This document shows positions 14,740 through 19,942 of a stretch of 64,000 bases of DNA, piece after piece. Position 1 is the stretch's first letter. Each line of letters begins with the position of its first letter. The notes below the pieces were generated by a model that saw only the letters and a list, made by a program, of their open reading frames with translations, was not told the origin of the DNA and did no database searches. The position numbers were made by a program, and so were the translations under genes. Location: the NCBI RefSeq assembly GCF_000469585.1, contig NZ_AWNK01000005.1:1-64000 (forward strand). The letters run 5' to 3'. Source of the stretch: Chrysiogenes arsenatis DSM 11915. GTDB lineage: Bacteria > Chrysiogenota > Chrysiogenetes > Chrysiogenales > Chrysiogenaceae.

Positions 14740-15915
14740 TCATTTGAGTTCGACACCGTTAGCTAATCGACTTGCCGCGGCTAATAGCCGATCAAATTCT
14801 GGTGGATAACTGTTGTCGCCTGAGCTTTCAATGAATGCATAAGGGAGCCGTAACACAAATTGCCATTGAGTTCCGTCGCAAACCCCAGGGTTTACATATC
14901 TACTATTCCAGTCCCAAACATTTATTTCGTGACACACTTGCAGAAACTTTGACCAAGCACCTTTCTTTACGCTAAGAACGGTGGTTGGCACTACATGCCC
15001 ATCACTGAGATGCCAAATTTCGTAGTCAATCGTTTCATCTTTTAAGGTAAGCGCATACGATGAGCCAAAGTAGCCGCCGACGGAGAAGTGAAACTCTACT
15101 GGGATCAGATCAGTGTCACCGATATCGGCAACCTGAAGTTTCTCAATCTCTCGGTGTGCCTTCAAAATTATTTCAAAATGTGACAGTGGTACGTCAATGC
15201 CCTGCTCGAAAAAGTCAATAAGGTACTTCTCCGAACAAGGGCGAAATCCTTTGCGATAGCAGAATAGATATGCCACCGCCTCGGCTTCCAGCTCTTCTAT
15301 TTCGTGAGAAAGACGTTTTGTCCGTTCAGATAAATGATCACAAAAAATATGTGCCAGTTCGTGAACTAGCGTGGGGAACTGTTGAGCAATACCGTGATTT
15401 GAGTTGATTGTGAGAGAATAATGTATTTGTGGCGAGTTTTTCTCGTCCGGTTGCGTATAGCAAGTCACGTATCCCGCTTGAAAAACTGAAAGTGGTTTGA
15501 ACTCTACGTGAATATTCTTTTTATCGCAGTTGTAGACAAGACGCCGGAATGCTAATTCCAAGTCAGCGCCAACAGACCCTTCAAATGGGAACAGGCGATC
15601 GCATAACGCGCCTAGCGGAATATCACTCTCATACCCTTCTATAGGCCGCCCATCCGTATCCCGAATATCATAGACAAATGCAACCGGACCAAAAGGGATA
15701 AGCGTTACAATTGGCGCTGCGCCTGGCAGCACGTAGCGATCATACACCTTCCATTTTGATTCAGAAAAAACCAATTGCGCATCGGGCCGCTGCTGCGCAA
15801 TCAAAAAGGCATTGTAAGGAGCAAGATAACGACTTTGTTTGAGGAAATCTAACCGCAAAAAGAACGCTGGTGGCTGTTCAGACATGCGCCGCATACGCTC
15901 TATCAAATCTTCCAA
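14740..15915 (-). CDS. ArdC-like/ImmA-like zinc metallopeptidase
   Basis: A 391-residue protein with a zinc-peptidase centre HELAH (185-189) and a downstream ELEAEAVAYL helix (about 208-217) supplying the third ligand, as in ImmA/IrrE (DUF955) proteins. The N-terminal part (about 25-85: YNAFLIAQQRP, a conserved W, then GAAPIVTLIPFGPV) resembles the ArdC antirestriction N-terminal domain. The C-terminal ~130 residues are unrecognised. The TTG at 15915 has no good ribosome site. A well-placed ATG at 15947-15949 (after AAAGGGA) is in another frame and stops after 23 codons, so the true start is uncertain. It is the last gene of the restriction island. Its target could be a repressor or phage protein; that is inference. 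Confidence 0.75.
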   Translation of the reverse strand: MEDLIERMRRMSEQPPAFFLRLDFLKQSRYLAPYNAFLIAQQRPDAQLVFSESKWKVYDRYVLPGAAPIVTLIPFGPVAFVYDIRDTDGRPIEGYESDIPLGALCDRLFPFEGSVGADLELAFRRLVYNCDKKNIHVEFKPLSVFQAGYVTCYTQPDEKNSPQIHYSLTINSNHGIAQQFPTLVHELAHIFCDHLSERTKRLSHEIEELEAEAVAYLFCYRKGFRPCSEKYLIDFFEQGIDVPLSHFEIILKAHREIEKLQVADIGDTDLIPVEFHFSVGGYFGSSYALTLKDETIDYEIWHLSDGHVVPTTVLSVKKGAWSKFLQVCHEINVWDWNSRYVNPGVCDGTQWQFVLRLPYAFIESSGDNSYPPEFDRLLAAASRLANGVELK

Positions 15916-16002
15916 TTGCGTACGAAGGTGCTGTACCTTCAGCTCGCATGGTAATCCCTTTCTGTGTTATTCCGCGAACGGCTACGAAATAGTGAGGCTA
16001 CT

Positions 16003-16185
16003 CTAGCCAGAGACCTTAAGCTTGTTTAGTAATTCTAAAGATAAAGATTCATCAATGTGATTGTTAAGCCCAAGCTCATGATATATTGCCACAGCAACAT
16101 CCTCTACCAGACGGTCTTTATTGCAAGTATCATTGTAATTTGCTATTGCATTTCGAATTTTCTTTTCAAATGAATCTAATTTCAT
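16003..16185 (-). CDS. Small unknown protein of the restriction island
   Basis: Sixty residues starting KLDSFEKKIRNAIANYND, mostly helical, charged, no membrane segment. The ATG at 16185 has AAGGAG 8 bases upstream, better placed than the GTG three codons before. AT-rich like its neighbours. I do not recognise the family. It lies between the metallopeptidase and the 106-residue protein, all on the same strand, which suggests a shared transcript. Confidence 0.6.
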   Translation of the reverse strand: MKLDSFEKKIRNAIANYNDTCNKDRLVEDVAVAIYHELGLNNHIDESLSLELLNKLKVSG

Positions 16186-16274
16186 CTTACACACTCCTTA
16201 ATCAATCAAGATTTATAAATGACCCGCATACAAGACGAAATTTCGTACTATCTTGAACCGTTCATTGCGCCGAA

Positions 16275-16595
16275 TTATAAATAACTATTTAAGTGACGCA
16301 TTAGTGTTTTAAACCGTTCATCGCTAATTTCATCTGAATTCGCTTCCTGTGCAATGGAGTAGGGATCACCACCTGATCCCGCTAACTGTGACCACTTATA
16401 TTTAACGTCTTCCGGTGATACTTTTGGCGCAGTCTTTTCTATCGCTGTTAACCCTAATATAGCTTTTCGTAATCTAGTAGTCTTATTGCACATGTTCTTA
16501 TAATCCTTTTTGAGAACTAAACTCGAATAAAAGGCTATCTGCAAATTGAATATGTACGTTACAAGTGGGGTTATGTGCGTCACTAAAGTTGCCAT
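16275..16595 (-). CDS. Unknown protein overlapping the restriction enzyme gene
   Basis: A 106-residue protein whose ATG lies 13 bases inside the 3' end of the restriction-modification gene, an arrangement typical of translational coupling. An N-terminal hydrophobic stretch (about residues 8-28) may be a membrane anchor or part of a core. The rest is basic, then acidic (KVSPEDVKYKWSQLAG, DEISDERFKTLMRHL). No recognised domain. By position it may be an accessory or control subunit of the restriction enzyme, which is inference. Confidence 0.5.
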   Translation of the reverse strand: MATLVTHITPLVTYIFNLQIAFYSSLVLKKDYKNMCNKTTRLRKAILGLTAIEKTAPKVSPEDVKYKWSQLAGSGGDPYSIAQEANSDEISDERFKTLMRHLNSYL

Positions 16596-19500
16596 GTATC
16601 ATCAATTTCCCCCATGATTCGATGTGTTTCATTGAGTGCAACAATAATCCGCTGATAATGCCGCACATCGTCATAACTCAACGTTCGACCATGGCGATCT
16701 TTCAGCCATTTTTGTGCTGGTTGATAGCCACCGATAAAAAACTCCCAAGCAATAAGCGGGACTTCATCGAAATACTGTTCATCATTGATCCAGATTCGAC
16801 CAATTCCGCCAGCTTCGTCGTAGAGTTCCCAATCTTTTTTGGTAATTTTACGGGTGATAGTGTTATTGCCAGCAACAGGGTACGAAGTAACAAAGCGGTC
16901 AATCTCTTGATGCTCCAGTAGGTGATACTGGCGCAGTTCACTCCCTTTTTGTACTAAATCCCAAAACATATTTGCATCAGTGGGATAAGGGATGCGGGGG
17001 AAATCGGTTTTTAAAAACTCTTGATATTTTGTGCGATAGCTTGGCGAATGGAGGACGGCATAAATGTAATCTATGATATTAACTGGAGACATGCTGCATG
17101 TGCCATTCGCATCATTAACATTAAAAACGAGGCCTATAGCTTGTGAAATATTATCAACAATAGTTAAATTTAAGTTATATCCTTCAGTAGTAGTTGAAAG
17201 ATCGTCACTACCATATAGTCGCAGAGGAAAAACCTGATTTGCCTCCCTGCTAGAGGTAGAAATGACGCAGTCATTTGCAATAAGTTTTGTGATAAAACAA
17301 TGCCTAAACCCTACGGTTGCTTGTTGTTTTGAGACCAGTAAACAATAGTTTTCTCTGCCAGCGACATGCAGAATTAGTTCTTTTCTAGGCCTATCACATA
17401 TAGCTGGGTGCATTATTGCAAAGCGATCATCAAAAGCCCTATAGGTAGTTTTGCATACGAATTGGCCATAATTAATATGTATTCCTATTTTATTTCTTTG
17501 TTCTTTGAGTTTCCAACTGCTGGATTCATTAATATTATACCTAGACAGCAGCTCATGTTCATCAATGTTGTCATCAACAAAATCAGCCAGCCTCTTGATG
17601 AGTTCGTGCTTACAATGGGCAACAGCAAAAGAATCTCTGTGCGATTGATAACCAACAACGCTAACGGGCATCAACTCGTCAAGGCCGAATCCTGACTTAT
17701 ACACATTTAATCTTGCAATATCTTTTAAAATAAAAGAATAGCTAGGGGATATGTTAGATACAAGCTTATAGTTGATCCGGCCATTCGAGTTGTTACTAAG
17801 GAATGAATACTTGTGAGTACGCTTTCCATAAACATCAAAGTGATAAACCTTACCTAATTGACCAATTTTTCTTTTTTCTTTTTTGATAAAGATACTTATA
17901 GAAACACCTTGCTGGATATCAAAGACATTTTCATCCTTTGAGCCATCTGGAGCAGTTTCTTTTTTATTGCTGTTGCCATGTAAATCAATAACGTATATTT
18001 TGTCATATGTATTGAGTAAGCTCCAGCGCATACCACGAAATGTTGGGTTATCAAGAAAGCCGTGTGGGTTAATGAACGCCATTATCCCTTCGCCTTTCTT
18101 TTCAATAAAATGCTGGGCGTAACGAATGAATTTCACATAGTCGTCGTTAATCCACTTGGGATTTTTTTCATTTAGCTTTACAGCCCCACCAGGTTCTTTT
18201 TTGTAGTCTTCCATCAAAGACATAATCCACTCGCCTTTGTTAGCGCTTTCGCCGCTGTATGGTGGGTTGCCTAACACTACCATCACTGGCGTGTCGCGTT
18301 TTACAAGATCAGCCTCTTGCGCCTCTTGGCTTATCCATCGTGCAAACAGGGTTCCGGTTGCAGGGTGATGCTCTTCTAAGCTATTGGTGAGAAACACACG
18401 GAAACGCTGGCTTTTATTTGGCACATACCCCGTTTCTTGTAAAAGCAAGTCGAGCTTTAAGTGTGCCATTGCATAAGATGCCATAAGGAGTTCAAAGCCG
18501 TTTAATCGCGGAATGAGGTCGTTTTCAACGTAGCCACTCCACATGCCTTTCATGTTAGCAAACCGGGTTTTGTAGATGTACTTGATAATCTCGGCCAGAA
18601 AGGTGCCTGTTCCTGTTGCAGGGTCAAGTATTTGTACTTTATGAACTTCCTTTTCTTGCATTATGGGTTTGCCGCGCTTATCAGTGCCAACACCTTCGAC
18701 TTTAATGGCTATCTTGCTGTTGTCGGCAATGCCATCTTTGATACCAAACTCACTTTTTAAGATGTCATCAACGGCACGGACGATAAAGCTGACTACGGGT
18801 TCTGGTGTATACCAGACTCCTCGAGCCTTGCGGAGCTTGGGGTCATATTCAGAGAGGAATGTTTCGTAAAAATGAATAATGGGGTCGTTTTGAGCCGTAG
18901 CGGAATTGCCAAAATTATTTAACAGTGATTTTACGTCAGTAGCACGAAATACATCGGCTAAGTTGTCAACATTCGTAATTAGCCGTTCATCAATAGTTGT
19001 TCCAGCTATGTACGAAAAAAGGTTACGCAAAAAAGGATTTGATTTTGGGATAAGTTCGGCTGCTTCATGGCGGCTGAAATTCTCAAGTGTGGTATCATGC
19101 AGTCTCGCGGCAAACATGCCATACGCTATGGTTTGGGCATAAATATCAGCAAATTGCTTTTCGTCGATATCATGGATGAGGCTTTCTTGAAACGCAGTTA
19201 ACTGATCGCGAAGGCTGTTATTTTCATAGGTATCATCTTGTGACGTCAATGCGTATTCAATAGTATTTTGCAGAAGTCGTGCTTTGGCGGCCATCATTTT
19301 GGCAAGCACATTTGGTGATTTTATGGTTTGTCCAACAAATATGCCAAAATCTTTAATCTGATTTTCAAATTGTTGAAATGCATCTGTGTTGGCGATGATA
19401 GTGGTGCCTTGGAGTTCTGCTAGCCGAACTTCTTCTGTAAACTGTCCATAACGGTAGAAACGAAATATCAGATAATCGGTAATGATAAGGTTATCGAACC

Positions 19501-19768
19501 CTTTTTTATATCGCTCGAACTGTTCATTTTTTCCATCCAGTTTAATCCCGATGACTTTGGCTTCTATGTACCCGATGGGGATTGTTTTACGCGAAAGGAT
19601 ATAGTCGGGATTGCCAATGTTCTGGACGCGTCCCGGTTCGTTAGTGACGTGAACATCCGGCAGAAGTGTGCGCAAAAGCTGTTCAAGATCACCACGAAAG
19701 GTGTGCTCAGTGGTTTTACCTGCTCTGAGGCGTTTTTGAATCATGTCTAGATATGCGGCCACATCCAT
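16583..19768 (-). CDS. Single-chain type IIG/ISP-like restriction-modification enzyme
   Basis: A 1061-residue fused nuclease and N6-adenine methyltransferase. The N-terminal PD-(D/E)xK nuclease is visible as NPDYI (Asp55) and GYIEAK (Glu69, Lys71). The methylase core has YTPEPVVSFIVRAVDD, motif I DPATGTGTFL (about 378) and motif IV NPPYSGES (about 498). The C-terminal ~450 residues would be the target-recognition domain, as in type ISP enzymes, but the helicase domain of true ISP enzymes is missing, which fits type IIG. It needs no separate methylase or specificity subunit. AT-richer than its neighbours and flanked by repeats, hence probably acquired. Confidence 0.9.
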   Translation of the reverse strand: MDVAAYLDMIQKRLRAGKTTEHTFRGDLEQLLRTLLPDVHVTNEPGRVQNIGNPDYILSRKTIPIGYIEAKVIGIKLDGKNEQFERYKKGFDNLIITDYLIFRFYRYGQFTEEVRLAELQGTTIIANTDAFQQFENQIKDFGIFVGQTIKSPNVLAKMMAAKARLLQNTIEYALTSQDDTYENNSLRDQLTAFQESLIHDIDEKQFADIYAQTIAYGMFAARLHDTTLENFSRHEAAELIPKSNPFLRNLFSYIAGTTIDERLITNVDNLADVFRATDVKSLLNNFGNSATAQNDPIIHFYETFLSEYDPKLRKARGVWYTPEPVVSFIVRAVDDILKSEFGIKDGIADNSKIAIKVEGVGTDKRGKPIMQEKEVHKVQILDPATGTGTFLAEIIKYIYKTRFANMKGMWSGYVENDLIPRLNGFELLMASYAMAHLKLDLLLQETGYVPNKSQRFRVFLTNSLEEHHPATGTLFARWISQEAQEADLVKRDTPVMVVLGNPPYSGESANKGEWIMSLMEDYKKEPGGAVKLNEKNPKWINDDYVKFIRYAQHFIEKKGEGIMAFINPHGFLDNPTFRGMRWSLLNTYDKIYVIDLHGNSNKKETAPDGSKDENVFDIQQGVSISIFIKKEKRKIGQLGKVYHFDVYGKRTHKYSFLSNNSNGRINYKLVSNISPSYSFILKDIARLNVYKSGFGLDELMPVSVVGYQSHRDSFAVAHCKHELIKRLADFVDDNIDEHELLSRYNINESSSWKLKEQRNKIGIHINYGQFVCKTTYRAFDDRFAIMHPAICDRPRKELILHVAGRENYCLLVSKQQATVGFRHCFITKLIANDCVISTSSREANQVFPLRLYGSDDLSTTTEGYNLNLTIVDNISQAIGLVFNVNDANGTCSMSPVNIIDYIYAVLHSPSYRTKYQEFLKTDFPRIPYPTDANMFWDLVQKGSELRQYHLLEHQEIDRFVTSYPVAGNNTITRKITKKDWELYDEAGGIGRIWINDEQYFDEVPLIAWEFFIGGYQPAQKWLKDRHGRTLSYDDVRHYQRIIVALNETHRIMGEIDDTWQL

Positions 19769-19833: not shown

Positions 19834-19942
19834 GTCATCTCGAACGCATGTGAGAGATCCAGATTTCTCGCTTCGCTCGAAATGACATTTGCTCTTGCTT
19901 GCGGAGGTCAGATTTCTCCTCGCCAAGATCGTTTGAAATGAC
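19834..19942. repeat. Dispersed palindromic repeat, copy B (one full unit, one degenerate)
   Basis: 19834-19886 begins GTCATCTCGAACGCATGTGAG and ends CTCGAAATGAC. A second, decayed unit (about 19907-19942) carries CAGATTTCTCCTCG and ends GTTTGAAATGAC. It marks the right edge of the restriction island. Confidence 0.75.

Follow-up and report, generated by a model that had tools for sequence, protein, structure and literature searches.

The locus described here raises the question of why a metallopeptidase resembling the plasmid protein ArdC is encoded in one island with a restriction enzyme, and whether the two act together. Restriction-modification (RM) and BREX-like defences need restraint in their own host cell, and proteases that respond to single-stranded DNA (ssDNA) are one conceivable source of it. 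The window, i.e. the whole stretch of DNA that was analysed (64,000 nucleotides), corresponds to contig 3 in a genome of 2.83 Mb, and all features of it discussed below lie on the minus strand. Four open reading frames fill positions 14740-19768, with a MurE-like gene and an RND-type transporter as flanks, which agrees with the place and orientation given in a preliminary description of this DNA. The same description called the island AT-richer than its surroundings, and the gene-wise GC content bears this out: 0.41 for the enzyme, 0.38 for small protein A, 0.33 for small protein B and 0.46 for the peptidase, compared with 0.49 for the whole window and 0.53-0.58 for both flanks. If ATG 16493 is taken as the start of protein A and TTG 15915 as that of the peptidase, the intergenic gaps are 89, 89 and 87 bp.

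The island had also been described as bounded by repeats, which does not hold, as the repeat search found no pair bracketing it. There is a single copy of a dispersed 25-mer element (TCATTTCGAGCGAAGCGAGAAATCT) upstream of the enzyme gene at 19861..19885; with 18 copies across its own genome at ≤2 mismatches, the element is an interspersed repeat that is present on one side of the island only. Neither the enzyme nor the peptidase was found in the two other genomes of the same taxonomic family, and these offer no clean empty site, as the MurE and RND genes are not adjacent in either of them. Searching other genomes for the same gene order, as had been suggested, returned no second occurrence of the exact four-gene set. 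Outside the window, contig C2 of the same genome has an open frame of 12,479 amino acids around a chance match near 113429-113569; the genome may therefore contain a giant gene.

The largest gene of the island (16583..19768) encodes a type IIG/ISP-like restriction-modification enzyme of 1061 amino acids, recognized by Pfam, by PADLOC and by its relatives. Pfam matches comprise Type_ISP_C (E 1.2e-75, 341 of 342 positions), N6_Mtase (E 1.7e-10) and Eco57I, and the PADLOC match is to REase_MTase_IIG with 1113 bits. The PD-(D/E)XK nuclease motif PD...EAK (residues 55-71, 19556..19606) is conserved in the aligned relatives, as are the methyltransferase motifs I, DPATGTG (residues 382-388, 18605..18625), and IV, NPPY (residues 501-504, 18257..18268), and Pfam places the Type_ISP_C specificity domain at residues 698-1053 (16610..17677). 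Nuclease, N6 methylase and specificity domain are thus combined in a single chain, as in type IIG enzymes, and all three motifs are intact, in keeping with the single-chain nuclease-methylase proposed initially.

LlaBIII-type ISP enzymes are defined by an SF2 helicase domain between the nuclease and the methylase. The window enzyme shares with the LlaBIII/LlaGI kind the Type_ISP_C specificity domain, the N6 methylase and the nuclease in a single chain, but at 1061 amino acids it has no helicase domain detectable by Pfam or PADLOC, and the methylase follows the nuclease part too closely to accommodate one. We therefore regard it as a compact IIG/ISP-like rather than a LlaBIII-type enzyme, nearer to compact type IIG enzymes such as those of Borrelia plasmids. 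Full-length relatives reach up to 57% identity and are widespread, occurring in 331 plasmid records, many of them Borrelia plasmids, and in 44 of 384 sampled genomes; taken alone, the enzyme adds one more ordinary example to a known class.

Two small genes lie between enzyme and peptidase. The first had been read as a 106-residue protein (16275-16595) overlapping the 3' end of the enzyme gene. An ATG at 16493, preceded by an AAGGA-type ribosome site, is the likelier start and gives a protein A of 72 amino acids (16275..16493); Shewanella plasmid proteins of 83-84 amino acids, 39-47% identical and with a common C-terminal LNSYL, align with it from residue 2. Protein A is therefore probably 72 rather than 106 amino acids long, and with this start it does not overlap the enzyme gene. 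Its relatives were found on Shewanella plasmids only, amid plasmid genes, one of them next to umuD and the gene for a Y-family polymerase; no restriction enzyme is near them in the plasmid stretches shown. Protein B (16003..16185, 60 amino acids) is an open reading frame that has no match in Pfam or PADLOC and for which no relatives were found. Neither protein gave a helix-turn-helix (HTH) match in these two databases, and neither turned up next to further enzymes or peptidases of the families represented here.

The last gene (14740..15915) encodes an ArdC-fold M78 (ImmA/IrrE-like) peptidase of 391 amino acids from the TTG start, in a frame that stays open upstream to 15966. It matches Pfam PF06114 (M78) with an E value of 4e-7 and 30.2 bits against a cut-off of 22, as do 73 of 73 family members at E ≤0.1. 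The HELAH zinc-binding and catalytic motif noted in the preliminary description (residues 185-189, 15349..15363) is confirmed and is accompanied by the glutamates E208 and E212. H185 and H189 are each kept in 72 of the 73 members and E186 in all of them; together with H194, E208, E210, E212 and R221, which are likewise kept in 72-73 of 73, these residues yield the family signature HExxHxxxxHL ... ExEAE ... R. As the zinc-site residues are nearly invariant, selection seems to act on the protease site.

The ArdC-like N-terminus, too, was correctly recognized, although here the evidence is the fold, as Pfam detects only M78 in the window peptidase and misses the N-terminal half. The Pfam ArdcN model has no match in the window peptidase and matches 1 of 73 family members (E 0.093), and a profile built from four family members matches ArdC by sequence with E 4.6e-4. 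In a predicted structural model based on 73 sequences, with pLDDT mostly near 90 for residues 15-262, residues 13-266 match ArdC of plasmid R388 (6sna) with a Z score of 12.3; the ArdC matches score 12.3 and 12.1. The next matches concern the protease half, with IrrE at Z 8.1 and the PprI-ssDNA complex at Z 7.5, and residues 48-89 of the N-terminal half match Rad4 at Z 4.5. Iyer and colleagues proposed that the ArdC N-terminal domain is akin to Rad4 (PMC5512222). In the predicted fold, the peptidase contains both a BHD-like N-terminal domain of the ssDNA-binding type and a C-terminal gluzincin domain.

Two features set the window protein apart from its family, in whose tree it forms a long branch. 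At the N-terminus, the family profile extends to 15933, upstream of TTG 15915, the first standard start in frame, and the ATG at 15949, the only one preceded by a good ribosome site, opens a frame of 23 codons (15878..15949, read from the sequence) that is not that of the peptidase. The start is thus irregular, possibly owing to a non-standard start, an indel shift or a draft error. At the C-terminus, an extension of about 130 amino acids (14743..15129) is private to the window peptidase, as other family members match until about residue 260-285 and the tail was not found in them. Folded alone, the tail gave a pLDDT of 41.6. A PUR/PC4-like identity was considered on the basis of weak matches in a region with pLDDT near 45, and we do not claim it. 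A weak stand-alone relative of the tail is encoded close to MutS and HD-domain genes on a plasmid of Ruminococcus albus. Used as single queries, neither the window peptidase nor the tail returned viral relatives.

The peptidase family is associated with modification-based defence systems. Scanning 84,980 species genomes with the peptidase only, we retained 80 loci, the best 80 of 132, of which 74 were scorable; many contigs in this sample are short, neighbours were named by clustering plus PADLOC and Pfam on representatives, and the reference neighbours were picked from the same loci, with their identities checked independently. Within these best 80 of 132, a core restriction- or modification-type gene lies within 5 kb in 40 of the 74 scorable loci, in 21 of the 28 loci with complete flanks, and, by the looser criterion of five genes, in 47 of 74. 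For comparison, N6_Mtase genes occur about once per Mb in 99 sampled genomes, and we estimate that roughly 1 in 100 random 11 kb segments would contain one, the core defence set being somewhat wider than N6_Mtase. Wherever a core defence gene is present within 5 kb (best 80 of 132), the nearest one shares the strand of the peptidase (40/40), and at several junctions the two genes overlap by 3-7 bases or lie ≤25 bases apart. Some proximity is expected from the general clustering of defence genes in islands; a shared strand without exception and the overlapping junctions argue for an operonic linkage that goes beyond it.

The neighbours are of many types. They include HsdM, HsdS and HsdR of type I and Mod of type III RM, PglX of BREX, DruE (Druantia-like helicases), HmaA, HmaB, GmrSD, IIG enzymes and HamB of Hachiman. 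In one type I system, the peptidase gene is placed between HsdM and an HsdS-like gene (locus L076, 373-3864). The order HmaA-peptidase-HmaB recurs in a genomic locus (L059, 818-8044) and an IMG/VR contig (L121, 898-8380), making the peptidase an extra component of some Hma operons; Hma was originally described as a three-gene operon, with the peptidase not mentioned (PMC8565338). The closest arrangement to the window (L086) combines an enzyme 32% identical to the window enzyme, a 455-amino-acid protein and the peptidase, and at a further locus (L063) the peptidase is accompanied by a type III system together with a split type-ISP-like gene. At least 28 changes of system type are needed on the peptidase tree, against a minimum of 5 and a shuffled mean of 37.7, so that system types are clustered while the module has also passed from one system to another. 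In the searchable literature we found no description of an ArdC-M78 protein as an RM, BREX or Hma accessory; subscription journals and preprints lie mostly outside this literature, and absence there counts for little.

Carriage on mobile elements was assessed with a central family member as the query, which matched 23 of 72,556 plasmids and 2 of 50,697 phages, mostly distantly. ArdC-M78 proteins of other genomes from the same phylum were also seen on apparent mobile elements (L003 and L004), with an SSB-like gene nearby in the former. The PADLOC model RT_III-A (PDLC02944), labelled as a reverse transcriptase, is matched by 72 of 73 family members, and in the ten viewed singly the match was to the C-terminal end of the model, suggesting that the ArdC-M78 module also occurs fused to reverse transcriptases.

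We tentatively favour, at somewhat less than an even chance, the reading that the peptidase is a regulatory protease, responsive to ssDNA and interchangeable between modification-based defence operons, comparable to CapP and PprI. The Rad4/ArdC-like N-terminal domain would bind ssDNA arising from DNA damage, replication stress or the degradation of an invader; binding would activate the zinc protease, which would then cleave a protein of the defence operon, either a repressor or a subunit, and this cleavage would turn the defence on or off. We infer ssDNA binding, protease activity, the substrate and the direction of control from the near-total conservation of the protease site, the ArdC-type ssDNA-binding fold and the placement in defence operons, which together make this sensor-protease the best reading. 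ssDNA is the activator of PprI and likewise triggers CapP to cleave CapH, the CBASS repressor (PMC10904395). For plasmid ArdC, protection against HsdRMS does not require the protease (PMC7213743), so an antirestriction function as such fails to explain the conserved zinc site, and ssDNA-triggered cleavage as in PprI and CapP fits better than antirestriction of the ArdC type. Counted against the sensor-protease are the lack of a recurrent partner or HTH family among the immediate neighbours, the lack of an HTH repressor gene in the island, the irregular peptidase start, the GC difference between peptidase (0.456) and enzyme (0.412), which hints at separate origins, and the enzyme family itself, as none of 37 of its loci (30 genome loci with flanks of ~1.5 kb and 7 plasmid loci) has the peptidase beside it. 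With no repressor recurring next to it, the peptidase could cut a core subunit of the defence, a repressor encoded at a distance, or itself.

In the window itself, the peptidase may be functionally coupled to the enzyme, which is less certain than the coupling at the family level, owing to the unique gene set, the irregular start and the differing GC content. The expectation that the small genes and the peptidase accompany related restriction enzymes elsewhere was realized for the peptidase, through the RM linkage of its family and through L086 and L063, and failed for both small genes. It is unlikely, but deserves consideration, that the island is a coincidence of independent defence and mobile genes in a variable spot, with a peptidase in decay, a view that leaves the family linkage untouched. 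The irregular start and long branch of the peptidase would suit it, as would the enzyme relatives without a peptidase, the unshared four-gene set and the absence of the enzyme from the two family-level relatives; the complete conserved domain with its active site, the common strand, the 87-89 bp gaps and the strong linkage of the family to defence genes speak against it.

Other roles for the peptidase appear less probable still. An ArdC-like protein could protect the cell from its own defence, shielding exposed or unmodified self DNA or removing a restriction component upon DNA damage. We consider such self-protection improbable: the fold, the ability of plasmid ArdC to counter HsdRMS (PMC7213743), the sharing of operons with nucleases and the precedent of HsdR degradation by ClpXP, as cited in PMC12255303, are offset by the near-invariant zinc site, as ArdC antirestriction does not need the protease, and by the architecture of type IIG/ISP enzymes, in which one chain does both the methylation and the cleavage and no separate R subunit exists to be removed. 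A proteolytic effector arm, in which the peptidase, once activated by the defence complex or by DNA of the invader, cuts host or phage proteins and stops the infection, could account for immediate neighbours that are often defence genes and for the same module at the C-terminal end of RT_III-A. As no toxic or membrane domain was recognized, and the known M78 defence proteins are a regulator (CapP) or an antitoxin (RmrA), we judge this quite improbable. Very improbable, in our estimation, is a toxin-antitoxin pair like RosmerTA, with the peptidase as antitoxin, one of the small proteins as toxin and the restriction enzyme unrelated. RmrA is an ImmA-like protease antitoxin (PMC10440598), its model PDLC03954 weakly matches 15 of 73 family members and the small genes lie just upstream, but the window peptidase has no RmrA match, the small proteins were not found with other family members, and the relatives of protein A stand alone on Shewanella plasmids.

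Extended to the whole family, the sensor-protease would be a widespread, swappable, ssDNA-triggered control module of ArdC fold and M78 type, acting on type I, type III, IIG/ISP, BREX, Hma and Druantia- or DISARM-like systems across phyla and, in the window, on a one-protein RM enzyme; we regard this broader claim as possible, with a chance well short of even. The recurrence of peptidase relatives across DNA-modification defence operons suggests a shared regulatory or sensing part, and it is the place of the peptidase family in these defences, rather than the ordinary enzyme, that makes the locus of interest. If the proposal is true, ssDNA-triggered proteolysis would be a common switch for many otherwise unrelated modification-based defences, and the usual picture of ArdC as purely a plasmid counter-defence would be inverted. 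Experimentally easy family members exist, e.g. in type I systems.

The known systems resemble the island in different respects. RosmerTA also has an ImmA-like protease, RmrA (PMC10440598), beside defence genes, but its toxin partner has no proven counterpart here and its RmrA profile has no match in the window. The EPEC RptR-RMS-DarTG-M48 island (PMC12255303) likewise joins a restriction system to a terminal metallopeptidase gene; there, the system is of type I and the peptidase is M48, not ArdC/M78. ArdC of R388 (PDB 6i89, 6sna) combines an ssDNA-binding N-terminal half with an HExxH protease, as does the window peptidase over residues 13-266. Unlike ArdC, with which identity is 15%, the family has an additional invariant His194 and is found for the most part in defence operons of chromosomes rather than mainly on plasmids, the window peptidase bears its 130-residue tail, and the known function of ArdC dispenses with the protease. 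CapP-CapH as such was rejected for the window, where the PADLOC capP profile has no match, while 43 of 73 relatives match it weakly. The island differs from PprI/IrrE-DdrO and CapP-CapH in having no HTH repressor partner and an ArdC-like instead of a PprI-type ssDNA-binding part; it shares with them the M78 zinc site and the link to ssDNA, and CapP, like the protease proposed here, governs a defence operon.
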